Under the pieces are notes generated by a model, which worked only from the letters and a program-made list of their open reading frames with translations, ran no database searches and was not told the origin of the DNA. From an uncultured bacterium (GTDB lineage Bacteria; Elusimicrobiota; Elusimicrobia; Elusimicrobiales; Elusimicrobiaceae), in contig CASEVY010000007.1 in the NCBI GenBank assembly GCA_949291515.1, positions 124,001 through 188,000 of the forward strand: a stretch of 64,000 nt of DNA, given 5' to 3'. Made by a program: the position numbers and the translations under genes. Positions 43,980 to 64,000 of this stretch are shown here, in pieces; position 1 is the first letter of the stretch, and each line of letters begins with the position of its first letter.

Positions 43980-45106
43980 TTATTGAGTTTATAGTAAAAG
44001 AATTAAAGGCTTTGCTTAAAGACAGCGGATTTGTACTGCTGGCTTTTGGCGGACCTTTGTTTTATTCGTTTTTTTATCCACTGCCGTATGCCCGAGAGGT
44101 GGCGCGTCAAATACCGGTAGCGGTGGTAGATCAGGATAATTCCGCACTTTCGCGCCAGCTGGTTCGAATGATGCGTGCGGAGGAGGAAATCTCTCCGATA
44201 GCTTATTCTTCGCTGTCGGAAGCGAAGAAAGCGCTTGACCGCCGAGAGGTGTTTGCCGTAGTATCGCTGGATGAGGACTTAGAACGGGATGTTTTGAAAC
44301 AAGTTCCCAAGTCGGTGCACATATATACCGACGGCAGTTATCCCATCTACTACAAACAGGCCACTACGGCCCTGCAGAAGGCGATTAAGACGGTGTCGGC
44401 GGGTGTGGAAATAAAAAAATTGCAATCGCTTGGTGCGGGCAAAGCCGCGCCTTTGCTGAGAAGCCCCATAACAATGACCGCAGTTAATTTATATAATCCG
44501 CAAGGTTCTTACGGCAATTATGTGGTGCCGGCGGTTTTTGTGGCGCTGGTTCATCAAATTATGCTGATAGCGTTAGGCTTGCGTGCGGGCACATTATACG
44601 AACAAAAGAAAGAATATCCTAAAAGGCTGAAGCCGTTTAAAATATGGCTGGGGAAGATGCTTTCTTTACTACTTTTTATGGCTGGATATTTTGTTTATTT
44701 GTTTATAATAATGTATCGTCTGTACGGTTTTAGCGGAGGAGATAGAATTTTAGAATGGTTCTTGTTCTATATGATTTTTGCCGTAGCGGCTATCGGGCTT
44801 GGCCTTACGATTGCGGGATTATTTAAGGATAGAGAAACCCCGATAATGTTTATTGTAGTGACGTCATTGCCGATGTTGTTTATGTCTGGGGTTATTTGGC
44901 CGGTGTGGGAAATGCCTTTGGCGATACGGCTTTTGCGTTTGTGCATACCGATGACTTACGGTATTAACGGGGTGGTGCGGCTGTTTGTGATGAATGTTTC
45001 TTTGGGGGATATTTTGCCGTATCTCAGCGGCTGCGCGATATTGGCGGTATTATTTGGTTTTACTTCTTACTTTACGATAAAGAAACGCTATCCGTTGGAG
45101 ATGTAG
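43976..45106 (+). CDS. ABC-2 type permease (YhhJ/YbhR-like), second of a pair
   Basis: 376 aa with the same architecture as its neighbour (QIPVAVVDQDNSALSRQLVR after the first helix, five helices from about residue 180), so the two arose by duplication and probably form a heterodimer. SGVIWPVWEMPLAIRLLRLCIPMTY is the conserved ABC-2 C-terminal motif. Last gene of the marR operon; no clear terminator follows. Confidence 0.9.
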   Translation: MIIEFIVKELKALLKDSGFVLLAFGGPLFYSFFYPLPYAREVARQIPVAVVDQDNSALSRQLVRMMRAEEEISPIAYSSLSEAKKALDRREVFAVVSLDEDLERDVLKQVPKSVHIYTDGSYPIYYKQATTALQKAIKTVSAGVEIKKLQSLGAGKAAPLLRSPITMTAVNLYNPQGSYGNYVVPAVFVALVHQIMLIALGLRAGTLYEQKKEYPKRLKPFKIWLGKMLSLLLFMAGYFVYLFIIMYRLYGFSGGDRILEWFLFYMIFAVAAIGLGLTIAGLFKDRETPIMFIVVTSLPMLFMSGVIWPVWEMPLAIRLLRLCIPMTYGINGVVRLFVMNVSLGDILPYLSGCAILAVLFGFTSYFTIKKRYPLEM

Positions 45107-45448
45107 CATATATCGCTTAACAATCTTTTGGGTGAAAGGTTATTTTTAGAGGTTTTCCAGTTGCGCAGGAAGCTAATATAACTGCAAATAAGACTGATGT
45201 TTAAATCGTAATAAATTGTATTTAAAATATGGGCAGCGTACCGCTAGCGACTTAATGCGCGCTATAAGCGGTAAAAATAGACAAAGAGACGTATTATAAA
45301 GCGCTTGTCTTACAGATACGGGAACATATGAGAGTGAACAATCAGAACTAAAAACAATGTATCCAAGCTATTGGTCTAAGCCGTGAAAGAGAGCGCTCGT
45401 TAATGGAATTTACACACTTTATTTGGATAGAGTTTATAAGGCTTTTGA
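45107..45448. other. Decayed intergenic stretch at the start of the accessory region
   Basis: 342 bp without an intact gene. One + frame from ~45272 reads VKIDKETYYKALVLQIREH, then after a stop IQAIGLSRERERSL. This looks weakly like the start of an IS3-type transposase (YYKAL and 'IGRDR'-like motifs), interrupted by a stop. I regard it as possible transposon debris only. Confidence 0.2.
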
Positions 45449-45811
45449 TTAGTTGTTTTCTTTGTAGATGGCTTTACAATTGTTCCCACTATATTTCCAG
45501 TAAGTGATAATTCCATTCTCAATAGTAAAAGTTGTGTCACAGTAAAAGTGAAAGTAATTTCCATTTAAAGTAAAGTTATTTTCTTCTTTATAAAGCAAGT
45601 ATTTTTGGCCCTCTACTTCATATGTTTGATAAGGGACTCCCCATTGTTTGATGAGTTGGAGTTCTCTGGCATTTTCCCAACTTTCCATTATTTGTGTATA
45701 TCCTTCCGCAGTAGGTTCTGTAAGAGAAACTCTTTCCCCATCTTTGATTGTATATAATCCACATGCAATGAAGCATACAGAGATAGATAATAATGATATA
45801 ATTTTCATCAT
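45449..45811 (-). CDS. Small lipoprotein of unknown function
   Basis: 120 aa. MMKIISLLSISVCFIAC is a lipoprotein signal peptide (lipobox FIAC). The rest reads like a beta-rich domain with a KQWGVPYQTYEVEGQKYLLY segment similar to small SmpA/OmlA-like lipoproteins (a 'WG.P' then a hydrophobic strand). The start at 45811 is chosen for GGGAA upstream and for the signal peptide; an in-frame ATG at 45856 is too far out. Confidence 0.65.
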   Translation of the reverse strand: MMKIISLLSISVCFIACGLYTIKDGERVSLTEPTAEGYTQIMESWENARELQLIKQWGVPYQTYEVEGQKYLLYKEENNFTLNGNYFHFYCDTTFTIENGIITYWKYSGNNCKAIYKENN

Positions 45812-46197
45812 AGATATTCCCTTACAGGTATTGTAATAAATTCCCAACACCAACAAAAGAGTTAAAAGATAGAGCGTTATCTTGAAAAGCTCTCACAAAG
45901 AGAGTGTTGTTTAGGGGAGGAAGATACAAAATTAAATTCTAGGCAGTTAAATGAGGGCAAAAGTATACAAAGATGCCTTTTGCCCTTGCTTTTGAGGTCC
46001 AAATGCACTGTAGGCAGAAGTATCTAGTTGGGGGTGGTTGTCCTAAAACAAAAATTCCCGATTGGAAGCGGATAAATAGAGTAAAAAGGCATTAAAAATC
46101 CCACAAAAAGTTCGATGGGAGTAAATATGGAGTACTGTGGTCAATGCTTTTTATAATTTTCTAATACAAAGGTAGATGAATTAGGAAAAAAGCACTC
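45812..46197. other. Intergenic stretch with one strong inverted repeat
   Basis: No gene seen. AGGGCAAAAG (45954-45963) pairs perfectly with CTTTTGCCCT (45977-45986), loop 13 nt; no T-run follows, so its role is unclear. The rest is AT-rich and without recognisable signals. Confidence 0.35.
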
Positions 46198-47538
46198 TTA
46201 GGGTAAACTCTGTAATATTTTGTGTTCTAATTTTTCTAATTCCTCAGAGTAATATTTATATTTCCCTTTAATTGTAAGATACTGTGTTTTCCAAGGAAAT
46301 TTACCAAATTCTTTATTATCTTTAGCAATATTATAAAGAGGGATTAATAATAATAAGCATTGGACACACGAAGATATCCATAAATTATAGTCTCTGAAAT
46401 ATGTATAAGGAAGAAATGCTTTCCTAGAAATTCGATTAAAGGTTTGTTCAACCTGTTCTAAGATATTAATATCCGGAACACTTTGTGCTATTTTTTCTAA
46501 TTCTATAATATTCGCCATATCTAGTTCAGTTGGCATTCCGGAAATGTTTTGGGTGTGTTCTAATATGTTTTTGGTTTGTAATTCCATCAATTCTTTTTTT
46601 ATTTCATCATCATCTAGCTCGTTAATAAGAAAGGTCCATTGTGATATAGGATAAAGTCGATGGTGCAAATCTTTAAATGTTTTTTGATTTAAAGATTTTT
46701 TAAAAGATGAAGAGGAAAAAACTTTAAGAGCTTGAGAAAATTGTTTATCCTCGCTTAATGTGTGATTTGTTTTTGCCCAAAAATTTTTTTGGAAAAATAG
46801 AATATAGATAATTAAGTTTTCAATAGAATTGTTGGATTTTAATTTTCCATTTAAACTTGCAATATCAAATTTTTTTTCAAAAACAATATTGTTTCTTAAT
46901 ACCGGATAATATTTTAATAATGTGATAATCCTTAATATGGGACTAGCGGAATTTAAGAATTCCTTTGAGGTAAAGGTATCGGTAAAACTTGAATCAAGCA
47001 AAAAATATAAATATATATTTTGCAAATCTCTTCTTTTGGTGTCAGTAAACCATTGTGCAAACGCGATAGGGCAAGATAATCCTAAATAAAGCATGACATA
47101 TCCTAATCCCCATAATCCATTTCTATTTATATGACGAAATGGCCTTGAAGAAATGAAATCAAAAATCTCTATTCCTGAATTGAAATCTATATCAAAATTA
47201 GAGAACGGTTTCAAAATATCTGCTGAGAGGTTTTCTAATTCTTTGATAATTTCTTTATGATATTTTTTTATAATATTACAGAGTGTTTTATCATCTTTTT
47301 TTATTTTGGATATATAAGCAAGATTTGCTAATAACCCACATAGGAATAAGAAGATATTTGGAATTTTCTTTGTATTTTTGTTCAGGTACTCAGAAAAGAA
47401 ATTATATCCTTGCGCGGTGATTTTTAAATCATTGTTTTTGTGAGTAAAATATCCATCTTTAATAAACGGGGCAATATCATAAACCCCTTTATTAGAGAAT
47501 GTAATTAAGTCTTGGAATCCGAATTCTTTTTCTAACAT
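46198..47538 (-). CDS. Unrecognised helical protein, second gene of a two-gene cassette
   Basis: 446 aa, Asn/Lys/Ile-rich and almost all helical. Residues ~15-55 (GVYDIAPFIKDGYFTHKNND, then LKITAQGYNFF) read like a winged-helix domain. The central part (FLFLCGLLANLAYIS and a later LGYVMLYLGLSCPIAFA) has hydrophobic stretches that may be buried helices rather than membrane spans. The stop of the upstream gene overlaps its ATG (TAATG), so both are made together. No family recognised. Base composition is clearly more AT-rich than the core genes to the left, a sign of transfer. Confidence 0.75.
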   Translation of the reverse strand: MLEKEFGFQDLITFSNKGVYDIAPFIKDGYFTHKNNDLKITAQGYNFFSEYLNKNTKKIPNIFLFLCGLLANLAYISKIKKDDKTLCNIIKKYHKEIIKELENLSADILKPFSNFDIDFNSGIEIFDFISSRPFRHINRNGLWGLGYVMLYLGLSCPIAFAQWFTDTKRRDLQNIYLYFLLDSSFTDTFTSKEFLNSASPILRIITLLKYYPVLRNNIVFEKKFDIASLNGKLKSNNSIENLIIYILFFQKNFWAKTNHTLSEDKQFSQALKVFSSSSFKKSLNQKTFKDLHHRLYPISQWTFLINELDDDEIKKELMELQTKNILEHTQNISGMPTELDMANIIELEKIAQSVPDINILEQVEQTFNRISRKAFLPYTYFRDYNLWISSCVQCLLLLIPLYNIAKDNKEFGKFPWKTQYLTIKGKYKYYSEELEKLEHKILQSLP

Positions 47539-49067
47539 TAAAATATCCTATTTTTCTCATTACATAATGAAAGTAGCGAGTTAATATACGCTTCCGCTTC
47601 TAATTTGGTCTTACCATTGAGAGGAAGTATACAAAAATCATAATCTTTTAGAAGGTTGTTTATGCTATTAGAAAGCATATAAATATTATTTCCTTGATTC
47701 GTTTTGACTACAACAAATCTATCATGAAATTTTGCTGTAGGCAAATTGTACCATTGGGAAAACGATATCGCTAAAGGCAATGCTTTTAATTGGTTCAATG
47801 CATTTTTTGTATCTTTTATAATCTTATCAATGTTGGTCTTTTCCCTAGGATTATCTGGATTTTCTGCTCTCCAGCACGAAATAATTTGTATTCGCAGGTG
47901 TGTGTCTGTTAATCTCGCCAGCAGGCTAAGACTTTCTTGAGAAATAAAAGGATCAATTATGATTAATATGGTTGCGCTGGACCTCTGAGTGATTTTATTA
48001 AAATATTCAACAAGATTATAGATTTCTGTTAATTTTGTAATCTTATTATGTTTGTGAAACCAACATCCATTTTCTAGTACCTGTTTAGCTAATGAAGATT
48101 TCTTTACAAGTTCTTGTTTCCAGAAATTAGCATTCTGTTCTTCTTTGGGTAAAAGACTAGGAGTTCTCCAAGAAGACCTGTTAGTAGGAACCATACTCTC
48201 TAGGCGTTTATCTTTAGTTGCCATTTTATCTTTTATGGATATGGAATCGGATAATACAATAATATTTCCTGAAACAGCGGGAATAAATCCCACCCTTTCG
48301 TGATGCAGAAGAGAATTCTCCTCGTCAAAAATCCAATATTCTTGTTCAGCTATATTAGAAAGAATATGAGTAATAGGAAGTGTATATTCTGTTACTCCTA
48401 TGTCTATATTTAATAATGTATCTAAAAGGATTTCCTTACGGTTTGAATAAAGAACTAAGTGGACTTTCCAATTTTTGTTGTTTTCTTTGCGATAAAAAAA
48501 GACTTCTTTTTGTTTCACAATAAGCTTAAACGGGAGAATCTCTTCAGCCCATTCCTTTGTTTCTGCCCACTCGAAGCATCCCAATCTTTCGACATAAATA
48601 TCACTAAATTTTTGTCTATCATTATCCAGGGTTTTGCAAAGATTCATAAATTCATTTGTAGATAGTTCTCTAAAATAGGAATTTTGCATAAATTGGTCGC
48701 TGTAATAAATATCAATATCAGTTACAGAGTCAATAGGTGAAGGGGGCGTCTGGTATAGCATATGATTGGCAAACTGAATAACTTTATTATGGTAATAAAA
48801 AACAGTTTTTAAAGGCAGGTTTTTATTGATTTTTAAAAAATCTATGATATTATTAGAAAAAATTTCTGATATATTAATATTTTGAATTGAAGTATATAAC
48901 TGTACTTTCCACCCACTAGGTAATTCCCCTAAACATTTAGGTTTAGACATTATATGGCTATGGCTGGTTGGGAGAGAAAGACCATAGAGAAACATATAGG
49001 AACTTTCTTTTTTTAACACATATATCCAAAATATCCTATTCGTCATTTGTTTTATTGGTTTATTCAT
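47538..49067 (-). CDS. Large protein with C-terminal PLD-like (HDRF) domain, first gene of a two-gene cassette
   Basis: 509 aa. The N-terminal ~340 residues are mixed alpha/beta and unassigned. From about residue 365 the pattern ATILIIIDPFISQESLSLLA, a Rossmann-like strand RIQIISCWRA, then KFHDRFVVV (His448, Asp449) and IYMLSNSINNL matches single-motif phospholipase-D-like nucleases, where an HDR box replaces HKD. Such domains occur in anti-phage proteins. I recall a family named VPA1262 with related layout but cannot confirm a match. AT-rich; the promoter probably lies in 49068-49200. Confidence 0.75.
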   Translation of the reverse strand: MNKPIKQMTNRIFWIYVLKKESSYMFLYGLSLPTSHSHIMSKPKCLGELPSGWKVQLYTSIQNINISEIFSNNIIDFLKINKNLPLKTVFYYHNKVIQFANHMLYQTPPSPIDSVTDIDIYYSDQFMQNSYFRELSTNEFMNLCKTLDNDRQKFSDIYVERLGCFEWAETKEWAEEILPFKLIVKQKEVFFYRKENNKNWKVHLVLYSNRKEILLDTLLNIDIGVTEYTLPITHILSNIAEQEYWIFDEENSLLHHERVGFIPAVSGNIIVLSDSISIKDKMATKDKRLESMVPTNRSSWRTPSLLPKEEQNANFWKQELVKKSSLAKQVLENGCWFHKHNKITKLTEIYNLVEYFNKITQRSSATILIIIDPFISQESLSLLARLTDTHLRIQIISCWRAENPDNPREKTNIDKIIKDTKNALNQLKALPLAISFSQWYNLPTAKFHDRFVVVKTNQGNNIYMLSNSINNLLKDYDFCILPLNGKTKLEAEAYINSLLSLCNEKNRIF

Positions 49068-49260
49068 ATAATCAAATAGTATATTGAATGCTACATTCTA
49101 ATATATTTGTATTATTATTTGTTATTCTACTAATTTTGTTTAGGACAAAAAACACAATTTTCGGGCTAAAATGGTATATTATTTATAGGAAATAATTGTA
49201 TTTTCTATTATATATCTTATTTATAAGTTATTTATTTTTGAAGGAGTATTTGTCTGGCTT

Positions 49261-49500
49261 TTTAAGCCGTTTTGACGGCTTAAACACAATTTGAGTCTGT
49301 TTTTGGAACCGCATGAGGAATGCGGTGCGCTTTTGGGATACCAAAGGCTCAATCGTAGTCCAAAAACAGCCGAGTTTAGACACAGAGTAAGCGGCCTAAT
49401 TACCCGTTTGCCCTGGGTCGAATGTTTCCTGCCCTTCGGGGCGGGAAACTGCGGCTGTTTATATTTGGGTTACTACGATTGGCTCGGATATAACAGCCGC
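49261..49500 (+). ncRNA. Candidate structured RNA with pseudoknots (orientation probably +)
   Basis: 240 nt with at least seven complementary segments: TTTAAGCCG/CGGCTTAAA (49261-49284); an 11-bp helix 49297-49307/49359-49369 enclosing hairpins ACCGCAT/ATGCGGT (49308-49326) and CTTTTGG/CCAAAGG (49330-49347); a 10-bp hairpin 49425-49448 closed by a C(UUCG)G tetraloop; GCGGCTGTT/AACAGCCGC (49451-49459/49492-49500); and two long-range helices CAATCGTAG/CTACGATTG (49350-49358/49473-49481) and CCGAG/CTCGG (49370-49374/49483-49487), which would be pseudoknots. CGGCTGTT can also pair with AACAGCCG at 49365-49372, giving a switch-like alternative. A strong Shine-Dalgarno follows at 49551. Not a tRNA, tmRNA or RNase P RNA by motif. 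Confidence 0.6.
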
Positions 49501-49609
49501 CATTTTTTATATCCTTTCCCGTTTCCTTGGTTCCGCTTATTGCATTAACCGGGGAGGCGCAGAGCAATGTTATACGGCGGCTGAGCTAACAGCGGATTTA
49601 GACAAGCGT

Positions 49610-49852
49610 TTGGAGCAGGGAAACCCGGATATAAAACCTGTTTCGGTCTCTGAAGAAGAACTTAAAGCTCCTTCCGCTACTGCCCAAGAACAGACCTTTA
49701 GGAATTATATGGATACCACCTATCAGCAAGGCGCGCCTATTCCCGGAGCAGAGGATAATCAGCCCCAAGAAACCTCAGAACCCCCCAAAGAGTCAAAGAG
49801 TTTCTTAAAAAAACTGAGCGATTTCTTATCCTCTCTATTGTTCTTTTTATAA
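49610..49852 (+). CDS. Small acidic protein with hydrophobic C-terminus; true start unclear
   Basis: At least 80 aa, acidic and Pro/Gln/Glu-rich, ending in a basic patch and hydrophobic tail (KSFLKKLSDFLSSLLFFL). The frame stays open upstream (AELTADLDKRLEQGNPD looks coding) but contains no ATG or GTG; TTG at 49610 is the first possible start and has no Shine-Dalgarno. A strong GGGGAGG (49551-49557) precedes ATG 49567, which opens only five codons (MLYGG, stop) in a neighbouring frame. Deleting one base in the GGCGGC run (49576-49581) would join that start to this gene. A terminator follows at once. No family recognised. Confidence 0.5.
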   Translation: MEQGNPDIKPVSVSEEELKAPSATAQEQTFRNYMDTTYQQGAPIPGAEDNQPQETSEPPKESKSFLKKLSDFLSSLLFFL

Positions 49853-49855
49853 TGC

Positions 49856-49883
49856 AAAGGCCGGCCTCAAAGTCGGCCTTTTA
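49856..49883 (+). terminator. Intrinsic terminator after the small acidic protein
   Basis: AAAGGCCG (49856-49863) / CGGCCTTT (49874-49881), followed by T. Confidence 0.75.
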
Positions 49884-49889
49884 CTTTGT

Positions 49890-49895
49890 TAGAAT
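49890..49895 (+). promoter_or_regulatory. -10 box TAGAAT for the 49.9-kb gene
   Basis: TAGAAT with ATG 49926 about 30 nt downstream, behind an AAAGGATGA Shine-Dalgarno. Here a normal short leader is expected, unlike the leaderless genes. Confidence 0.4.
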
Positions 49896-49925
49896 GAGGG
49901 ATATAACTAACAAAGGATGATAATT

Positions 49926-50465
49926 ATGGAAATTAAATTTGCGTTGTGGCAATACAAAAAAGATGAGTTGGGCGAGTTAAAGCCCACTAATCCCATTGTG
50001 GTAAGCACGTGGGAAGAGGTGCGGGCAAAAGCGAAAGAAGGATATAGATTGCAGGGGCTGACATATCCCGTTTTCCAAATGTTTAAAGCATTGGAATATA
50101 ACGAGTATTTCCTAAAGGAACGGGAGCGATTTAGAAAAGAGTTTCAAATTCCGGCGCGGGTTAGTTTTAAAAAATATTTAGAGAATTCACGCTATTTTGC
50201 CAAAGATAAGAAAATAACAAAAAAGAACTTTATCACTAGTCCCTTTTTTAAGGAGATTTGTTTCTTGGGGAAAGTTGTGCAAGCATATCGGATACCAAAC
50301 CATATAAAGGAACTGCTGAGAGATTTATTTTATACGGGGGTTGTGCGTTTTATTCCGCCGTTTGGCGGGGATGTGCGTATTGCAATTTATCCTAAACAGC
50401 GTTGGTTGCATCCTAAAGAAGTTCGTTTGGAGATAACCTCTCCCCATATGACAAAAATGCTTTAA
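49926..50465 (+). CDS. Unknown accessory protein, N-terminal part (probable frameshift)
   Basis: 179 aa beginning MEIKFALWQYKKDELGELK, mixed alpha/beta, no recognised family. After EITSP the frame runs out at a stop within seven codons, while the +1 frame continues smoothly as YDKNALKKFIDLHWEM into the next ORF. Adding one C to the TCTCCCCAT tract at ~50440-50450 would give one protein of ~278 aa. Probably a mobile-element gene, since it precedes the recombinase. Confidence 0.6.
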   Translation: MEIKFALWQYKKDELGELKPTNPIVVSTWEEVRAKAKEGYRLQGLTYPVFQMFKALEYNEYFLKERERFRKEFQIPARVSFKKYLENSRYFAKDKKITKKNFITSPFFKEICFLGKVVQAYRIPNHIKELLRDLFYTGVVRFIPPFGGDVRIAIYPKQRWLHPKEVRLEITSPHMTKML

Positions 50466-50479
50466 AAAAGTTTATTGAT

Positions 50480-50761
50480 TTGCATTGGGAAATGTTGCAA
50501 CCCTATATTTTGGCATTGCCAGCGGAGAATAATCTGTTAATTACCGAGCATGACTTGGAAGTTATGCGCTTGCGAAAAGAAAATAAAACGATTTCAAATG
50601 TAGCTACTGAAATGTATTTAGCTATGAATCCCGGTGATGTGCGTTACGGGAAAGAAAAAGAAGTCAAGGAAGCGACAGTTAAAACGGCTTATTTTAGAGC
50701 CAAAGAAAAAATAGATGAGTTCTTTCGTCCCGTCGGTCAAAAGAAGAAAAAGATGCGCTGA
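50480..50761 (+). CDS. Unknown accessory protein, C-terminal part (probable frameshift)
   Basis: 93 aa from the first TTG, but the frame is open further upstream and looks coding (DKNALKKFID). No Shine-Dalgarno. The helical stretch ITEHDLEVMRLRKENKTISN, then VATEMYLAMNP and VKTAYFRAKEKIDEFF, resembles a helix-turn-helix DNA-binding segment. It most likely is the end of the preceding protein, separated by a one-base frameshift. Confidence 0.55.
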   Translation: MHWEMLQPYILALPAENNLLITEHDLEVMRLRKENKTISNVATEMYLAMNPGDVRYGKEKEVKEATVKTAYFRAKEKIDEFFRPVGQKKKKMR

Positions 50762-50775
50762 TGAACTTAATTTTA

Positions 50776-50809
50776 TCGTCTCCGGGGTTTATGTAATCTT
50801 AGGAGACGA
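50776..50809 (+). repeat. Inverted repeat before the recombinase unit
   Basis: TCGTCTCC (50776-50783) / GGAGACGA (50802-50809), 8 bp perfect with an 18-nt loop. It could be a weak terminator or an operator for the following genes. Confidence 0.4.
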
Positions 50810-50841
50810 AGTAGTCTCTTTCTTTATTCTATCCTTTGTCT

Positions 50842-51045
50842 ATGAAGCACTTGGACAAAGGATTTTTTATTACAGCGCAAGATGTCCCGGCCGACTTTAT
50901 TAAGGAAACACAGAAGTTGGTTGCGGACAGCAGCGGGCGCAAAATAACCGCCGCGCAAGCGTTGCAAATAATTCAATCTTGGCTGGAATTTGCGGATATA
51001 TTAGTTCGCTTAAACCAGCTGTCCGGCGCGTCAAATAAACCATAA
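50842..51045 (+). CDS. Small protein encoded just upstream of the serine recombinase
   Basis: 67 aa (MKHLDKGFFITAQDVPADFI...). Mostly helical, with KITAAQALQIIQSWLEFADILVRLNQ forming an amphipathic helix. It ends 13 bp before the recombinase ATG, so the two are co-transcribed. Its size and position fit an accessory factor such as a directionality factor, but there is no motif to prove it. A TTG six bases upstream is an alternative start. Confidence 0.55.
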   Translation: MKHLDKGFFITAQDVPADFIKETQKLVADSSGRKITAAQALQIIQSWLEFADILVRLNQLSGASNKP

Positions 51046-51058
51046 AGGAGTAAAGGAA

Positions 51059-52633
51059 ATGAATAAGACGGTGATTTATTTAAGAGTCTCTAGTAAAGGA
51101 CAGGAGGAAAACGGCTATTCTCTGGACGCACAGGAAAAGTTGGCCCGGGAATATGCCGCCAAGAAAGGATTAGCGGTGGTCAAAATATGGAAAGGGGCGG
51201 AATCAGCTTGGGGAAAGATTGAAAGAACCAATTTTTCTGAAATGCTGGCTTTTATGAAAAAGCATCACGAGGTTAGGCATATTATTTTTGATGTGCTAGA
51301 CCGTATGACCCGCAACGATGTGGATAAACTTAAAATTGCTCAATTAGTAAAGCAATATGACAAAGTGGTTCATTTTTCCCGCGATAATAAGATGTACAGC
51401 CGGGAGTCCAGCTCCGACGAGGAATTTATGATGGATGTGCAGGTAGCCGTTGCCAAAAAAATATCCAATGACATTTCCCGCAAGACCACAATGGGTATGA
51501 CGGAAAAGGCCGAACAAGGTATTTATCCGGCCCGCGCGCCGATTGGCTACCTAAACAACCACCGCACAAGCAAAATCGATATTGACCCGGAACGAGCTCC
51601 TTTTGTAAAGCGTTTATTTGAAATGGCGGCCAGCGGGGAATATTCTTTGCAAATGATAGAGGATATCCTGTATGCGGAGGGGTTAAGGGAGCGTTTGCAT
51701 AATGGAAGAGTGCGTAAAAGTACCCTGTATCGGGTGCTTCATAACCCGATGTATTATGGCACTTTCCGTTGGGGCAAGAAACTTTATCCGGGCATTCACG
51801 AACCGCTCATCACAAAAGACTTATTTGAGAGGGTCAATAAGGCCCTCTCCCTTTTTGAGCGTCCCCGTGTTACTACCCGCAATTATCCTTTTTCTAATCT
51901 GCTTCATTGCAAAGATTGCGGCTGTTCTATTGTGGGGGATTTCGCCAAAAAGAAATATATGTATTACCGCTGTTCATTTTCCAAAGGGCAACATCCGCAC
52001 GAAAAATACATTCGGGAACATCAGCTTGACGAGGCGTTTGCGGCCTTGATAGATGCTATTAGCTTAAAGCCGGGAGTAGTGGCGTGGCTACAAAAAGCCA
52101 TAGAAATACGCTTAAAACACTTGGAAAAGGCCCAAAACAAGGCGACGGGCGGGCTTAAAGCGGAACTAAGCAAAAAGCAAACGGAATTAGAACGGTTATA
52201 TGACGAGGGCTGGGAAAAGGGCTATCCTGCGGAGTTTATAAAACGCACGGAAGAACGCTTAAAAACGGCTATTGCCGAGCTTACACAGCAAATACAAGCC
52301 CAAACTATACAACCGGAAGCCGTACGGCAAAAAAGCACAGATATTTTAAAGTTGGTATGTAATATGGGTACTATCTATCGTGCGGCTCCGCTTTCAGAAA
52401 AAAAGCCGTTTTTGCGTCATATAGCCAGCGATTTTGTATTGGACGGACACAAAATTTACCCAAAATACCGCGAACCGTTCAATATTTTTGCGGAAGGAAA
52501 TAAAAAATGCTTAGAAATTAAGGGGAAATCCCCTAAAAGTTCTAAGCATTTAATATGGGGTTCGCTTTTAGAATACTTTTACAACTTTTTCTCCACCAAT
52601 GTCATTTATTGGCATATTTTGCTTTCCCGATGA
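51059..52633 (+). CDS. Large serine recombinase
   Basis: 524 aa. The resolvase catalytic domain begins VIYLRVSSKGQEENGYSLDAQ (nucleophile Ser11 or Ser12); DRMTRNDVDK and the arginines of the active site follow. The recombinase domain has APIGYLNNHRTSKIDIDPER and STLYRVLHNPMYYG, and a zinc ribbon (CKDCGCSIVG...YYRCSF) and coiled coil (about 355-425) complete it. It integrates or excises an element at att sites by double-strand exchange. The final ~40 residues (after FNIFAEG) are atypical and overlap a strong inverted repeat, so the natural end may have changed on integration. GGAGTAAAGG lies before the ATG. Confidence 0.93.
   Translation: MNKTVIYLRVSSKGQEENGYSLDAQEKLAREYAAKKGLAVVKIWKGAESAWGKIERTNFSEMLAFMKKHHEVRHIIFDVLDRMTRNDVDKLKIAQLVKQYDKVVHFSRDNKMYSRESSSDEEFMMDVQVAVAKKISNDISRKTTMGMTEKAEQGIYPARAPIGYLNNHRTSKIDIDPERAPFVKRLFEMAASGEYSLQMIEDILYAEGLRERLHNGRVRKSTLYRVLHNPMYYGTFRWGKKLYPGIHEPLITKDLFERVNKALSLFERPRVTTRNYPFSNLLHCKDCGCSIVGDFAKKKYMYYRCSFSKGQHPHEKYIREHQLDEAFAALIDAISLKPGVVAWLQKAIEIRLKHLEKAQNKATGGLKAELSKKQTELERLYDEGWEKGYPAEFIKRTEERLKTAIAELTQQIQAQTIQPEAVRQKSTDILKLVCNMGTIYRAAPLSEKKPFLRHIASDFVLDGHKIYPKYREPFNIFAEGNKKCLEIKGKSPKSSKHLIWGSLLEYFYNFFSTNVIYWHILLSR
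52505..52551 (+). repeat. Long imperfect palindrome within the 3' end of the recombinase gene
   Basis: AAATGCTTAGAA (52505-52516) pairs perfectly with TTCTAAGCATTT (52540-52551), and AGGGG (52521-52525) with CCCCT (52530-52534), with a small internal loop. It is unusual in coding sequence; an att/recombinase-binding site or an RNA hairpin is possible. Confidence 0.6.
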
Positions 52634-53152: not shown

Positions 53153-54247
53153 ATGCTTCCCTATAAACCCCAAAATTTACCCATTTCGGACTTAGACTGG
53201 AAACCGCTTATAACCTTAGTAGGTCGTGCCAATGCGGTTCTGTCTCAATATACTGGCTTATTAAAGGGAATTGTTAATCCGCATGTACTGCTATCTCCTT
53301 TGACTACACAGGAAGCAACCTTATCCTCTAATATAGAAGGTACACAAGCTACCGTATCAGAAGTGTTAGAAAGTGAAGCCGGTAAAGTGTATGACGAAGA
53401 AAAACAACGGGATATCCGGGAAGTTATCAACTACCGTAAGGCTATGTTAGAAGCCGAAAAAATGCTAAAAGAACGGCCTTTTATCCACTTAAATATGATT
53501 AGAGCCCTCCATGAGATTTTATTATCTGGTGTGCGCGGGCAAGATAAGGCCAGAGGACAATTTCGTGTAGACCAAAACTGGATAGGCCCTTTGGGGTGTT
53601 CCTTAGAAAATGCTTCGTATGTGCCGCCAACTCCTATGGATATGCATCAGGCATTAAATAATTGGGAAGCGTACTTAAATGATGAAGATATAGACATCCT
53701 CATTCAATTAGCCTTTGTGCACGCCCAGTTTGAGATTATCCACCCGTTTAAAGATGGCAACGGGCGTATTGGACGTATTTTGATACCATTGTTTCTTTTT
53801 ACAAAAAATTACCTGCCTTTACCTGTTTTTTACCTCAGCGAATACTTGGAAAACCATAGGTCGGAATACTACAGCCGCCTCAATGCTATTACTAAACAAA
53901 ATGACTGGCAAGGATGGGTAGAATTCTTTTTAACTGCTATTATTAAACAAGCAGAAGCGAATAATATAAAAGCTGAGTCCATTATACAGCTGTATGATAA
54001 AATGAAAAAAGATATTCCTTCTTGTATTCACTCTCAGTATGCTACATCTGTAGTTGATACACTCTTTACAAGACCTATTTTCAACTCTACTCAGTTTATG
54101 TTTGAGGCCAAGATCGAGAGTAAGGGAACTGCTAATAAACTGCTTACCAAGTTGATGCAGGCAGGCATTATCAATCTAACCCGTGCAGCTGCGGGCCGGA
54201 CTTCTGCTATATATACCTTTACAGATCTAATAAAAATAGTCATGTAA
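53153..54247 (+). CDS. Fic family protein (AMPylase-type) with C-terminal winged helix
   Basis: 364 aa. The catalytic Fic loop is HPFKDGNGRIGR (about residues 195-206), complete for AMP transfer. An inhibitory SxxxEG motif (SSNIEGT, about residue 60) lies before the core, placing it in the class with N-terminal auto-inhibition. The last ~80 residues (TRPIFNSTQFMFEAKIESKG, then TANKLLTKLMQAGIINLTRA) look like a winged helix that may bind the four motifs in its own promoter. AGGAG lies 9 nt before the ATG. The target protein is unknown; many such Fics act as stress or toxin-like regulators. Confidence 0.92.
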   Translation: MLPYKPQNLPISDLDWKPLITLVGRANAVLSQYTGLLKGIVNPHVLLSPLTTQEATLSSNIEGTQATVSEVLESEAGKVYDEEKQRDIREVINYRKAMLEAEKMLKERPFIHLNMIRALHEILLSGVRGQDKARGQFRVDQNWIGPLGCSLENASYVPPTPMDMHQALNNWEAYLNDEDIDILIQLAFVHAQFEIIHPFKDGNGRIGRILIPLFLFTKNYLPLPVFYLSEYLENHRSEYYSRLNAITKQNDWQGWVEFFLTAIIKQAEANNIKAESIIQLYDKMKKDIPSCIHSQYATSVVDTLFTRPIFNSTQFMFEAKIESKGTANKLLTKLMQAGIINLTRAAAGRTSAIYTFTDLIKIVM

Positions 54248-57509: not shown

Positions 57510-60053
57510 TTATCCCCGGCATATATTCTGGAGTATGGACTGGTAGCTATCTTTAGTAACCATAGCAAATAAACATTTTCCATGGCTCTTTTCAGCCCAT
57601 AATTTACCTATATTTTCTTTCTCCTGAGCGTCTTGGGCTGAGATCAGGTGTTCCCCTTTATATTCCACTGCTAATAATCGGCCATCATTTAATAAAACAA
57701 TAAAGTCCGGATAGAACCGATCCGTAGAAGTGGGTAAAGAGAAAGAGTAAGCCGATTTTTCTATGTTCCGAACCCAATACTTAACTTCTGGCATAGAGTC
57801 TATTACTTGGGCACATTCAGCCTCTTCGTTATTCATTTGTCCAACAAAACTATAAAAATGCTTATTAAAACGTTTAGATCCCTCATATTTGGAGTTCAAA
57901 GGATAGTTAGGACCAAAGGTAAAAGAATAATCCATTTTAGTTTCTACTGTGCCTAAATGGAATAATTGGTCTTGATATCCTTTGGCATAGGCCTGTTTCC
58001 GGTAAGAGTCGATTTTCTGATCAATTGCCTTAGCCAATAAAAATTTAGTCCGCACCAAAGAATTGATATTGATTTTACGGGTAATAGTTAAGAAATCAAC
58101 CACACGGCGTAAAAATTCCAATAATACTGGTTGAGGCACATCTATTTGGGGAATTTCCCGGTCCAGCCAGCGGGATAATTCTAAATTGGTCCAAGCTGAC
58201 TCTGCCTCTTCCACATTATGTAAAAATAAGCGGCTTGCTACGCGTTCTGTAACTCGTTTTCCGTCTATATCAATTTCAAAAATTTTCCCATTTTGGGCAA
58301 TAGAGAAATCTGCCGCTGTAAGCTCAGCAGGAAAATCCAACAATTTCCACCCATTAGGCAAGTAAAATTCTTTATCTTGGATTACGTTCCAGGAGTCATC
58401 TGTAAATAAACACAATTGTGGAACAGAGAATTTCTCCCCTCTTTCAGCAAAAGAAGGCTCTTTTGGGGTAATTATATTGCAAGTGTTAAAAAAAGCAATA
58501 GCTTCTTGTTCGGGAAGCAATCTTGCAAACTTATCTCTCAGAGTCGGTTGAATATCTGTTTTTACCTGTACTGTTACCCGCCCATCTGGAAGTTGTTGCA
58601 AGGCTAATTCTTGTTTTTCTTCTGCGGTTAAGGTAGAAGTGTCTACTGGGCTGGTTGTAAAAGAATATGTCAAACCCAATTTACTGGGTTCTGGCTTTAA
58701 ATACTCTTTGCTTTCTTGTTCATCAAAACCCATTTCTACCAAACTATCTTTCAGTTTGGCTACGGCATTAGTCCAACACGCACTGGATACATAAGCATAT
58801 GCTTTATTCAAATCAGCTTGGGAACGTCGTTTTGCATAAGGCATGCGCAAAATGCGGCCTAAAAACTGCTCTACCGCAGTTAAGGACCTAGTTTGAGCCA
58901 CTGAGCAGAAAATATATGCAAACGGGCAGTCCCATCCTTCTCGCAAGGCCTGCTTTGTAATAATAAAGTCTATGGGGCAATTGGGATCTAATACATTAAT
59001 TCCATCTAATTCTTTTTGTTCTCCTGTGGCAATTGCAATACGATCTGCTGAAATATGTTCATTATCAATCAAATATTGTTTGATAATATCTTCAGTGATT
59101 TCTTGTCCTTTGCTTTCGGCCTGGATTAATACAATAGGGCGGATATATTCTTTTTCCAATTTAGCATCTTGCGCTAATTTATTTCTCATTAGGCAGGCTT
59201 CTGTTAAACTTTGTTGCCAAGTTTGTGTTTCCGTCAGCATAATGGGTAGTTTTATCATTTCTTCGGCTTTTAATTCCACCGCACTCACCCGGTATAATAC
59301 ATTGCTCTCTCCTTCTTTAGGAGTGGCTGTAAACTCTACAATACAGGCAGGGTTTAAACGCTTCATAATTTCCCTGTTTAACTCTGTTACGGCCTTGTGT
59401 GCTTCGTCTACAATCACAATAGGCTGGTGCATGTGCAATAAATTAGCAAAGGAATTTTTCACCCGGCCAGCATCCGGCTTTCCACCCTCTACCTTTTCTA
59501 AACACTCTAGATAAATTGCGGGAATAACCTTAAAATGAGGTTCCAAACTTTCATTATCCGCATATATATTGCGGATGTCTGTATCTTTTACATTAAAAGA
59601 TTGCACGGTAGAAACAAACACACAGGTTTTGTTGGCAATATCAGTTGGACGAAGGTTTGCAAAATCATCAATATCAAAAATAGCCACATTCCCTTTAAAA
59701 GCGGCGTCTAATACTTCCCTATTGGGATGGGTCGGGTTCTTTAAGGTTTCTATGGTTTGTTGTTTAATTGCCGATGTAGGGGTTAACCACAATACCATTG
59801 GATAATCCTTATCCACATAGTGTTGTGCGGCTAATTTGACAGTATGGGTAGCCAAAAAGGTCTTTCCTCCGCCGGTTGGCAAACGCAAGCAAACATAAGG
59901 GATGTCTTCCAGACCGGGAATGGCATGGTAGGGTACCCGGTCATTGCCTAATATTTTATAAAAAGCCTCTTTGGGCCCCATAATGCGGGCTTCTTCTAAG
60001 TAATTAGCCAAAACTTCTAAAGTATTATTTTGATAATTTTTCAGTTGAAACAT
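57510..60053 (-). CDS. Type III restriction endonuclease subunit Res
   Basis: 847-aa SF2 helicase-nuclease that cuts DNA with the Mod subunit. Walker A PTGGGKTFLATH is near residue 60, the DEAH box IVIVDEAHKA near 215, SF2 motif III EFTATPKEG, and motif VI QFLGRILRMPYAKR near 425. The C-terminal nuclease has a PD-(D/E)XK pattern, YPDFIVLLNDGRLLAVEYKG. The start at 60053 is favoured by AGGAG ten nt upstream; the longer ATG 60071 contains that Shine-Dalgarno. It overlaps the membrane-protein gene by 29 nt. Confidence 0.93.
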   Translation of the reverse strand: MFQLKNYQNNTLEVLANYLEEARIMGPKEAFYKILGNDRVPYHAIPGLEDIPYVCLRLPTGGGKTFLATHTVKLAAQHYVDKDYPMVLWLTPTSAIKQQTIETLKNPTHPNREVLDAAFKGNVAIFDIDDFANLRPTDIANKTCVFVSTVQSFNVKDTDIRNIYADNESLEPHFKVIPAIYLECLEKVEGGKPDAGRVKNSFANLLHMHQPIVIVDEAHKAVTELNREIMKRLNPACIVEFTATPKEGESNVLYRVSAVELKAEEMIKLPIMLTETQTWQQSLTEACLMRNKLAQDAKLEKEYIRPIVLIQAESKGQEITEDIIKQYLIDNEHISADRIAIATGEQKELDGINVLDPNCPIDFIITKQALREGWDCPFAYIFCSVAQTRSLTAVEQFLGRILRMPYAKRRSQADLNKAYAYVSSACWTNAVAKLKDSLVEMGFDEQESKEYLKPEPSKLGLTYSFTTSPVDTSTLTAEEKQELALQQLPDGRVTVQVKTDIQPTLRDKFARLLPEQEAIAFFNTCNIITPKEPSFAERGEKFSVPQLCLFTDDSWNVIQDKEFYLPNGWKLLDFPAELTAADFSIAQNGKIFEIDIDGKRVTERVASRLFLHNVEEAESAWTNLELSRWLDREIPQIDVPQPVLLEFLRRVVDFLTITRKININSLVRTKFLLAKAIDQKIDSYRKQAYAKGYQDQLFHLGTVETKMDYSFTFGPNYPLNSKYEGSKRFNKHFYSFVGQMNNEEAECAQVIDSMPEVKYWVRNIEKSAYSFSLPTSTDRFYPDFIVLLNDGRLLAVEYKGEHLISAQDAQEKENIGKLWAEKSHGKCLFAMVTKDSYQSILQNICRG

Positions 60054-60780
60054 GGGACTTTGGCTCCTCATTTTTTTGTTTTGGGTGATATTTTTCTAAA
60101 AAGAGTTTAAAAGGATCTAAATTAGCGGCTTCCTCTTGTAAATTCAGAGAATATATCTTGTCTAAATATGAAATAATACAGCATAAAATACGCCCTTGAT
60201 TAATGATAATAGAATCTAATAGAGGCATAAGCTGTTCTTTTGTTTTTTCATATGATGTCATAGACTCTGCCGTTTGGTAGTGGGGGTGGGTGGAAAAAAG
60301 TTTATTTAAATCTTCACATTTCGCTAAAAATAATGATATTTGCTTTTGGGTAAGAAAAACAAAAGAGACAATACCATCTTTTAAGTTCTGCGTGTTTTGT
60401 AATGCAAAAAAAGGTGCAATTCTAATTAGGGTCTGAAAGTTTTGTTCTTTAAATTTAGGTAATAATAAAGGTGCCGGGAATGTCTGTTTGCTTAAATGTT
60501 CATATATAATGCTGATTTCAGACAGATTATTAAGTGCAATAGCATATTCTAACATGAGTGCATCTCTTAACTTCTCTTTTTCTTTGCGCCTATTCTCATC
60601 TTTGGTCAGTTTCCAAACTAACCATACGGGCAAAGAAGCCCCTATAGTTGCCGTGGTAATTGTTACCCACATATCCCAATATATTCCATTCATCTTTGCT
60701 GCACAGCATAAGTTAATTGCATACAATACCACTAATACAAGTATTGCAATATTGGGCAACCATATTTTTAAACCAGCCAT
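60025..60780 (-). CDS. Membrane-anchored helical protein between mod and res
   Basis: 251 aa. Two N-terminal membrane helices (about 8-28 and 36-58) are followed by a basic segment (KDENRRKEKEKLRD) and a long cytoplasmic helical domain (about 75-235) with no enzymatic motif. GAGG precedes the ATG; it starts 5 bp after mod and overlaps res by 29 nt, so it is fully embedded in the restriction operon. Type III systems normally have mod and res adjacent. It might be a cargo effector or anchoring factor; no family recognised. Confidence 0.75.
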   Translation of the reverse strand: MAGLKIWLPNIAILVLVVLYAINLCCAAKMNGIYWDMWVTITTATIGASLPVWLVWKLTKDENRRKEKEKLRDALMLEYAIALNNLSEISIIYEHLSKQTFPAPLLLPKFKEQNFQTLIRIAPFFALQNTQNLKDGIVSFVFLTQKQISLFLAKCEDLNKLFSTHPHYQTAESMTSYEKTKEQLMPLLDSIIINQGRILCCIISYLDKIYSLNLQEEAANLDPFKLFLEKYHPKQKNEEPKSHVSTEKLSK

Positions 60781-60785
60781 AATTT

Positions 60786-62120
60786 CTACCTCGCGGGAAT
60801 GGCATAGGGGGTTTGTTTAAATACAATGTTTTCTTTCTTTAAGCGTTGCGGGCTTAACCGGCAGGATTCCCCATAAATCACCTTGAGACCATCAAAGGGC
60901 GGTAATCCTTCTAAAATTTTAGAAGTTAATACATTGCCCCCGTTTACACGCTTATCCCCTAAAACCCCATTATAAAGCAAATAAAATGCTGTTCCTTGGT
61001 GTACACCCAATAAAGGAGAATATTGATAGCTTTGCATAGGGGTTTTTGTTTCGCTAAACCACACATGAAAGGCTAAATCTTTGAAAGAAATATCCTGATT
61101 AATGTTTCCGGTAGTATTAAAAATGGGTTGGCCAAGGTCATAAAATGTAAAGCCGCCTCCGCCAGTCCACCCAAGGGCTTTAGAAATGCCACCTTGGTCT
61201 GTTCCATCAATCACTTTCTTCATACGGGGAACACAGTGGGTGATGGCATGCTCTCCCATTTCTATGCCTATATATTTGCGTCCCATTTTTTGCGCTACAG
61301 CGGCAGTAGTGCCGGATCCTAAAAAGGAGTCTAACACCAAATCCCCGGGATTAGTGCAAGTATCTAAAATATCTCGAATAAGACGTTCAGGTTTTTTGCT
61401 GTTTTTAAATTTGACGTCGCCTTCATCAGCTATATTACGCATGTCGATATGATAGTTTTTCCATAAATTCCCTCGTACAGTAGAACGACAAAATTCTGAT
61501 ATAAAATCAGATGTCCAGTGTAGAGCTTCTGAAAAAGGCATATAATAGCGCAATGAACCTGTAGAAGTCTTAAATATCAGATTCCCAGATAAATTTGCAA
61601 TTTCCCCAGGTTTAAGATTTTCTGACTCTTGTGGTTGGCGAGATAAAGGTTGATCTTGATATATATTTTTCGATAGATCTTGGATTATATAATCATTAAA
61701 CTTCTTATTTTGTAACATGACCTTGGAAATATTTTCCAATTGAATTTTATAATTCAAAGAAGAAAATAATTCCACGATCCATCTTTGCTTTTTTAAAAAA
61801 GTTAAAAGAGGTGTCTTTGTTAAAGATATTGGGTCTATATATGAAGAGTAATGTGGATCAAAAGGTTCATTTGTTTTCGTATATAAAGGTTTTAAATTAA
61901 TATTCGAATTAGAAAATCTTTTATATACCATGATGTAATCTTTAACTTTAACGAAGGTTTTGTCAATATGAGCCGCCTTTGTCCCAAAAACTTCTCCGGT
62001 TTCAATGGTAAGCATAGTCATAAAATTATCCCTTCCAAAAATTTCATCCATTATGACCTTTAAATATGCTTGTTCTTTATCATCAATTTGCACAAAAATA
62101 ATGCCATCTTTGTGTAACAA
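60786..62120 (-). CDS. Type III DNA methyltransferase Mod, C-terminal part (frameshifted gene)
   Basis: 444 aa from the first ATG in frame. It begins HKDGIIFVQIDDKEQAYLK, the conserved segment following the DPPY strand of beta-class methyltransferases, and has motif I DLVLDSFLGSGTTAAVA (about residues 250-266) and IGIEMGEHAI. The DPPY half is in the next ORF in another frame. Removing one base from the AAA at 62127-62129 (T in the gene) makes it continuous (LELLRELLHKDG), ~546 aa in total. The target-recognition domain lies between. As read, Mod would not be made. Confidence 0.85.
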   Translation of the reverse strand: MLHKDGIIFVQIDDKEQAYLKVIMDEIFGRDNFMTMLTIETGEVFGTKAAHIDKTFVKVKDYIMVYKRFSNSNINLKPLYTKTNEPFDPHYSSYIDPISLTKTPLLTFLKKQRWIVELFSSLNYKIQLENISKVMLQNKKFNDYIIQDLSKNIYQDQPLSRQPQESENLKPGEIANLSGNLIFKTSTGSLRYYMPFSEALHWTSDFISEFCRSTVRGNLWKNYHIDMRNIADEGDVKFKNSKKPERLIRDILDTCTNPGDLVLDSFLGSGTTAAVAQKMGRKYIGIEMGEHAITHCVPRMKKVIDGTDQGGISKALGWTGGGGFTFYDLGQPIFNTTGNINQDISFKDLAFHVWFSETKTPMQSYQYSPLLGVHQGTAFYLLYNGVLGDKRVNGGNVLTSKILEGLPPFDGLKVIYGESCRLSPQRLKKENIVFKQTPYAIPAR

Positions 62121-62424
62121 TTCTCGAAAGCAATTCTAGACGAGGATATATTAGAGATAGCCAAATAGAATGCTCTAAGTTATCATCGTAATGGTCAAAA
62201 GCAGAGCCTGTATTGTAAGGAGGATCAATATAAATGCATTTTACCCGCCCTTTATAATAGGGCAAAAGGGCTTTTAGGGCTTCCAGATTGTCCCCTTTTA
62301 TAAGCATATTGCCTTGGGTTTGGTCCCCCACGGACAGATCTTTATTTTCCACCAATACCTTATACGGCGTTTTATCTGCCGTGGTGAGGGCTTCTTTTTT
62401 ATTTAACCAATCCAAAATGGGCAT
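62083..62424 (-). CDS. Type III DNA methyltransferase Mod, N-terminal part (frameshifted gene)
   Basis: 113 aa carrying the catalytic motif CIYIDPPYNTG (about residue 70; DPPY = adenine N6-methyltransferase) and SIWLSLIYPRLELL. After LELL it runs into non-family residues (SRIVTQRWHYFCAN) and stops. AGGAT lies before the ATG. DPPY before FxGxG is the beta-class order typical for Mod. The frameshift is discussed with the C-terminal part. Confidence 0.85.
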   Translation of the reverse strand: MPILDWLNKKEALTTADKTPYKVLVENKDLSVGDQTQGNMLIKGDNLEALKALLPYYKGRVKCIYIDPPYNTGSAFDHYDDNLEHSIWLSLIYPRLELLSRIVTQRWHYFCAN

Positions 62425-63566: not shown

Positions 63567-64000
63567 TGGCTCAATATGAAGTAAATAATACATCTATTTC
63601 TACATTATTATCTTGGATTCGTAGTGAAGAAATCGCAATACCAGAAATCCAACGCCCTTTTGTGTGGGATTCAACTAAAGTTCGTGATTTGATTGATTCC
63701 CTTTATGCAGGGTTTCCAGTGGGTTATATTATTGTTTGGAAGAATCCAGACATCCATTTAAAAGATGGAACTATTTCTTCCGGAAAGAAAATTTTAATTG
63801 ATGGGCAACAACGTATTACCGCCTTGCAAGCGGCGATTGTAGGTGAACACATTGTTGGAAGTAACTACCGGAAAAAACGTATTAAAATTGCTTTTAATCC
63901 ATTAAAAGAGTGCTTTGAAGTTGCCAACCCAGCCATTGAAAATAATGTTGCTTGGATCACGGATATTGCGCCACTTTATCAGCCGGGGTTTGATTCTTTT
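63567..64000 (+). CDS. DUF262 (GmrS-like) protein, N-terminal part; continues beyond window
   Basis: 144 codons to the window edge, no stop. The N-terminus has [20 protein letters not shown], then [19 protein letters not shown] and [19 protein letters not shown], the two hallmark motifs (QRPFVW and DGQQR) of DUF262/GmrS NTPase domains. Such proteins are type IV-like restriction enzymes against modified DNA when fused to DUF1524 (HNH). AAAGGAG sits 7 nt before the ATG. Next to the type III locus it adds to a defence cluster. Confidence 0.9.

Follow-up and report, generated by a model that had tools for sequence, protein, structure and literature searches.

The 64,000-nt stretch of DNA analyzed here (hereafter the window) carries two genes, ORF1 and ORF2, that overlap at a TAATG. 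The overlap reads TTTTAATG, and a single A is common to the TAA stop codon of ORF1 and the ATG start codon of ORF2 (Table 1). Both reading frames are intact and open from end to end, and a possible ribosome-binding site for ORF2 lies within the 3′ end of ORF1 with a spacing of 7 nt to the ORF2 ATG. The GC content at the two genes is about 0.29–0.31, compared to 0.41–0.51 over most of positions 1–45000. The initial annotation had described an AT-rich pair coupled through a TAATG overlap, and both ORFs, their composition and the overlap, read directly from the sequence and backing the coupling, agree with that description. A search of positions 45000–51200 against Rfam returned no match, and promoter and terminator matches at the pair were no more common than in shuffled sequences.

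Table 1. Features of the locus, with positions given in window coordinates.
Feature	Position	Strand	Basis or remark
Left boundary block, common to two sister species	45928-46163		78.0 percent (L174), 77.6 percent (L175); L174 match stops at 46136
ORF2	46198-47538	minus	446 aa; almost all-helical model; occupies the C-terminal-half position of one-chain VPA1262 proteins
TAATG, ORF1 stop/ORF2 start overlap	47536-47540	minus	Sequence reading
ORF1	47538-49067	minus	509 aa; VPA1262 N-terminal region and C-terminal PLD-like domain (predicted)
PLD-like domain (predicted), ORF1 residues 334-509	47541-48068	minus	Predicted model and fold matches
AGGA, possible ribosome-binding site for ORF2	47546-47549	minus	Within ORF1 3′ end
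H448-D449-R450, HxK-like motif with Arg for Lys	47718-47726	minus	47/47 rows of alignment A3
D372-P373-F374, strand preceding the HDR motif	47946-47954	minus	D372 and P373 in 47/47 rows
Right boundary block, common to sister species G001	49155-52561		Two blastn pieces, 96.6 percent, 384 + 3026 columns
Serine recombinase	51059-52633		Pfam
Fic	53153-54247		Pfam
Type III Res	57510-60071		Pfam
Type III Mod	60786-62120		Pfam

A chromosomal slot shared with Gabija

Out of 17 further genomes of the genus, two (G011 and G001) have a close orthologue, at 87–88 percent, of the ABC permease gene preceding the pair. Both carry a restriction-modification pair after the permease and, after that pair, the left boundary block. 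Beyond this block come, in G001, minus-strand genes for GajB and GajA, a Gabija system in the same orientation as the window pair; from position 2942 of its locus (L185), equivalent to window position 49155, G001 rejoins window DNA at 96.6 percent identity. The right boundary block holds most of the serine recombinase gene. Because both flanking blocks match G001, we conclude that a segment of about 3.0 kb holding the two ORFs takes the place of about 2.8 kb with Gabija. The pair and Gabija occupy the same slot and orientation but have no proteins in common, and neither ORF1 nor ORF2 matches a PADLOC model for GajA or GajB. In G011, a gene for a 920-aa Ppl-like protein comes after the left block, and the right side differs; G007 (permease at 53 percent) had no flank in common with the window. 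Separately, the right block of G001, elsewhere 96.6 percent identical to the window, contains a 269-aa ORF (L185, 3350–4159) that the window lacks.

Pfam confirmed the serine recombinase, Fic and type III restriction genes that had been reported beside the pair or further on. The type III methyltransferase gene (60786–62424) is read in two overlapping frames (62083–62424 and 60786–62120), probably a frameshift, so that Mod may be broken. Past the window, starting near position 64000 (L188), further island genes encode a second recombinase-like protein, a type I restriction-modification system and GajA with GajB. Together with Gabija in the G001 slot and the Ppl-like gene in G011, this upholds the proposed defence-island location.

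ORF1 and its predicted PLD-like domain

ORF1 matched the NCBIfam model NF040700 (VPA1262_N_dom) with 112.9 bits (E 1.5e-32), above the cut-off of 80, and the alignment pairs ORF1 residues 194–499 with model positions 169–476 of 478. Against NF040699 (VPA1262_fam), ORF1 scored 73.6 bits, under the cut-off of 325, and ORF2 had no match. Most relatives consist of a single chain of about 1,100 aa, and others are split into two or three genes. Scored against a profile of the N parts from 62 one-chain relatives, ORF1 gave E 1.2e-16, with control shuffles nowhere near, and ORF1 ends at profile position 582 of 592, where the one-chain proteins enter their C half. Kinship with VPA1262 proteins, which the initial annotation had raised only as a possibility, is thus significant. 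Its label of an unrecognised cassette does not hold for ORF1, for which an NCBIfam domain model exists, but does hold for ORF2 and for the split. The ORF1-ORF2 pair is a novel split form of a family that is named but uncharacterized.

Other searches found little else. Pfam and PHROGs gave no family for either protein, and neither had a PADLOC match at E of 0.01 or below. The sole weak Pfam match for the pair, a bHLH_SAC51 line (E 0.18), was rejected as chance. No match to ORF1 was found by tblastn against plasmids and phages, an ORF1-only scan of genome contigs gave no relative, and neither did scans of viral contigs with ORF1 or ORF2 alone. NCBI took the family name from a Vibrio gene and assigned no role. 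In the portions of the literature available to us, VPA1262 appears as a gene of island VPaI-6 that served as a PCR target (PMC1464126) and is mentioned again in PMC3656152, the island is discussed without naming the gene (PMC10734457), and no function is given in these portions; the phrase "VPA1262 family" was not found in the papers searched.

The predicted model of ORF1 has a mean pLDDT of 61.9, with values mostly of 67–89 from residue 340 onward apart from two blocks of 59–63. The best Foldseek match in the PDB was BfiI (2c1l_A, E 7.4e-4), and VIA-align paired the model with SauUSI (7clg_A; Z 10.3, rmsd 3.6, 137 residues aligned). The VIA-align list over ORF1 residues 327–509 also contains BfiI, NgoAVII, Zucchini, Tdp1 and phospholipases D. 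The C-terminal domain of ORF1 is therefore predicted to have a PLD fold. A PDB sequence search using the N profile (A3) returned no match.

The HDRF motif noted earlier was located as described, at H448 and D449 behind a D372-P373-F374 strand, and D372, P373, H448, D449, R450 and S468 are invariant across the 47 rows of A3. Canonical HKD enzymes of the PLD superfamily carry HxKx4D followed by GSxxN. ORF1 departs from this pattern (HDRFVVVK...SNSIN), with Arg for Lys, Lys for Asp and no GS. The earlier reading of a PLD-like nuclease is thus supported by the fold (BfiI by Foldseek, SauUSI by VIA-align) but not by a canonical motif, the site being His-x-Arg. Because His-x-Arg replaces His-x-Lys, and the Asp and GSxxN are missing, we can only infer catalysis by ORF1.

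These departures leave room for a defence module in which the PLD-like domain is non-catalytic and serves in binding or sensing, with ORF2 or a host factor acting instead. Consistent with this, the residue at His+7 (Lys in ORF1) is Asp in none of 61 one-chain relatives matching the motif pattern, compared to all 7 N proteins of three-gene loci and all 5 motif-bearing small PLD proteins. The fold neighbours of ORF1 listed by VIA-align include FAM83B, MITD1 and TrmB, which to our knowledge are not nucleases, and a 987-aa relative outside A3 (L190) lacks HDR altogether, making it a natural active-site variant. Against it, H, D and R do not vary among the aligned rows, and the best fold matches, SauUSI and BfiI, are nucleases. 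The Arg-for-Lys change also occurs in BrxL-HKD fusions of BREX, whose authors, in the part of the paper available to us, consider activity likely kept (PMC12839542). We regard a non-catalytic domain as unlikely.

The predicted fold of ORF1 residues 334–509 is shared with the PLD-type restriction nucleases BfiI and SauUSI, but their identity to ORF1 is 11–12 percent, Arg for Lys is a feature of ORF1, and the two-gene module has no methyltransferase or helicase. PLD nucleases are also described in YprA helicase systems (PMC12458937), a different context.

One-chain and split relatives, and the origin of ORF2

In the phylum of the window, 3/340 genomes pass the NF040700 cut-off: this genome, G145, with one chain of 1108 aa (L003), and G225, with separate genes. 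Two other phyla gave 3/395 (all one chain) and 5/398 (2 one chain, 3 separate), counts that include the centres G340 and G342, which were picked for carrying the gene. Together, the three phylum searches gave 11 passing genomes among 1,133, six one-chain and five separate. Searching the phylum of the Fictibacillus locus with ORF1 identified 5/398 genomes, all with open frames of 987–1142 aa. A scan of genome contigs with an alignment of six one-chain proteins yielded 66 loci, including Pseudomonas, cyanobacteria, a WOR-3 MAG, Fictibacillus and a Methanobacteriaceae MAG; this set is biased to one-chain proteins because its query was one-chain. The same query found one locus in viral contigs. 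VPA1262-type relatives occur in genomes and on plasmids, in many bacterial groups and in one archaeal MAG.

The 62 distinct intact one-chain proteins were drawn from the scan loci and earlier loci. Outside this set are L042 (identical to L037), L012 and L020 (same gene as L003) and broken or contig-edge loci (e.g., L033, L045, L059, L064, L070, L073, L076, L083 and L084). We opened 15 split loci (L013, L140–L142 and L153–L163), which cover 11 of 14 split plasmid matches (H13, H15 and H22 were left out). A large partner gene lies downstream on the same strand in all 15, with a transposase gene inserted between the two in L156. A third, smaller gene is present in seven (L013, L140, L141, L158, L159, L161 and L162), with the HDR pattern in five of those; we note that this makes a second small HDR protein in 5/7 three-gene loci, with Asp at His+7.

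The one-chain family (NF040699; e.g., L003, L015 from a plasmid of Anabaena cylindrica, and L016) has the N region, PLD-like domain and HDR of ORF1 but carries a large C-terminal part on the same chain of about 1,100 aa, whereas the window has two genes. The two-gene loci (NF040700; L142, L153–L157, L160 and L163) resemble the pair in having a separate N-PLD gene and a downstream partner, but these partners, of 449–595 aa, show no match to ORF2, and ORF1 scores 55.5 bits against the one-chain N part compared to 26.0 bits against the two-gene group. Three-gene loci likewise combine a large partner with an N-PLD protein that carries HDR, but have the extra smaller gene and Asp at His+7 in the N protein, both absent from the window pair. 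Among the genomes searched, the exact ORF1-ORF2 pair was found in one. As a side observation, L102 and L107 (Maribacter phylum) are weak NF040700 matches of about 300 aa with a C-terminal HDRF domain and an N-terminal half that presumably resembles ORF6N or RhuM; they adjoin genes resembling type I specificity or methylase subunits.

We considered whether the split is an artefact of sequencing or the remains of a decayed one-chain gene, given that the genome is in 13 contigs and that several one-chain relatives are broken (L045, L070, L073 and L083). A TAG closes the ORF2 frame three codons upstream of the ORF2 ATG, so one frameshift cannot join the two frames. The possible ribosome-binding site ahead of ORF2, the full-length openness of both ORFs and the regular occurrence of separate genes in other lineages also argue against this explanation, which we consider highly improbable.

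The predicted model of ORF2 is almost all helical (mean pLDDT 69.7, pTM 0.63). Its first residues are modelled as H8–19, H23–27, E31–34, E37–40 and H42–54 at pLDDT of about 44–75, a candidate winged-helix-like start that we regard as unproven. Foldseek with the model gave no PDB match at E up to 0.001, and the weak rows were mostly helical repeats. Because the input alignment assumes homology to the C half of one-chain proteins, the model cannot serve as independent support for that homology.

Sequence comparison of ORF2 with the C half gave mixed signals. By local HMMER, ORF2 scored 2.8 bits, which is not significant (7/500 shuffles score higher), and its score over the last third of the C-half profile was reached by 6/3000 shuffles. 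Semi-global alignment gave 28.1 bits compared to a shuffle mean of 8.1, a score reached by none of 3000 shuffles (Z 5.7); reversed controls had Z of about 1. The best of 150 unrelated ORFs, which we take to resemble an IS66-type transposase, had Z 5.4, and because 1/150 decoys reached this value, Z alone is no proof of homology. The alignment spans ORF2 residues 1–446 and profile positions 33–491 of 519, with a positive score in 9/9 profile blocks. By HHalign, ORF2 ranked above 60 shuffles and 120 decoys, with a probability of only 2.2 percent.

The low HHalign probability, the HMMER score and the lack of a match to two-gene or three-gene partners would fit a partner swap rather than a split, in which ORF2 is unrelated to the C half and has replaced it. 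The end-to-end semi-global alignment, positive in every block and unmatched by any shuffle, and the first rank of ORF2 by HHalign argue the other way. A partner swap is possible but on the doubtful side; homology of ORF2 to the C half, as judged from these alignments, is likely but unproven. A swap concerns only where ORF2 came from and is compatible with the function that we propose below. Kinship of ORF2 with the partners of two-gene and three-gene loci was not supported, there being no HMMER signal with those partners. ORF2 had no tblastn match in plasmids and did not resemble the five proteins that ORF1 identified in the phylum of the Fictibacillus locus. In 334 genomes of its own phylum, nothing was clearly related to it (the best E beyond its own genome was 0.003). 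Three retinol-binding-protein rows from phmmer against the PDB (E 0.07–0.08) were set aside as chance.

Defence context and proposed function

Several relatives adjoin defence genes. On plasmids, split relatives lie beside a CBASS cyclase (L155), restriction genes and a reverse transcriptase (L153 and L154), ThiF with multiubiquitin (L160) and SIR2 (L161), and Septu- and PARIS-like genes adjoin some relatives. In other loci, L159 among them, no annotated defence gene lies within 7 kb. The 114 proteins flanking 39 one-chain loci (ORFs of 250–700 aa only, at most 3 per locus) matched 244 PADLOC models at E up to 1e-10, counting models and not proteins; these include PtuA, AriA, GajA, AbiLi and NsnB, among others. 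A small, unmatched control set of 27 proteins from arbitrary stretches of four genomes matched 7 models.

The strongest evidence for a defence reading is the slot position. Because a close relative keeps Gabija in the same slot, the pair is probably a phage defence, with a PLD-like protein as its effector, and we hold it likely that ORF1-ORF2 belongs to a defence module. Two overlapping genes in an island marked by a recombinase, one of them encoding a nuclease-like domain, could also be a toxin-antitoxin pair that stabilizes the element, with defence as a by-product. Relatives are mostly one chain (the 62 distinct intact proteins), which is unusual for a toxin and its antitoxin, ORF2 is large, and the slot is exchanged with Gabija; we therefore find this improbable.

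Our preferred explanation, to which we give a probability of about one in two, is an exchanged defence module with ORF1 as nuclease effector and ORF2 as sensor or restraint. ORF1 and ORF2 would be exchanged as a unit in the chromosomal slot, and their overlapping genes would allow the two proteins to be produced in balance. ORF1, with a PLD-superfamily domain under a VPA1262-type N-terminal region, would be the effector, probably a dimer like single-domain PLD nucleases, and would cut nucleic acid, H448 acting as the nucleophile and R450 standing in for Lys. ORF2 would do the job of the one-chain C half, either recognizing an infection or target signal or restraining ORF1. Upon infection, the putative complex would be freed, or would be loaded onto nucleic acid of the phage or the host, and replication would stop; nuclease activity, dimerisation, formation of the complex, the role of ORF2 and protection against phage are all inferred.

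Extending the proposal to the family, we lean slightly towards VPA1262-type proteins being one anti-phage system, in which a PLD-like effector with a His-x-Arg site is joined by a helical sensor, that exists in one-, two- and three-gene forms (the third gene encoding a second small PLD-like protein), with the window representing a separate splitting of the one-chain form. The exchange with Gabija in the slot gives a direct reason to test the pair for defence. If this is a defence system, its fused, two-gene and three-gene forms would reveal which parts must cooperate, and the His-x-Arg site, if the proposal is true, would broaden the known range of PLD-like effectors.
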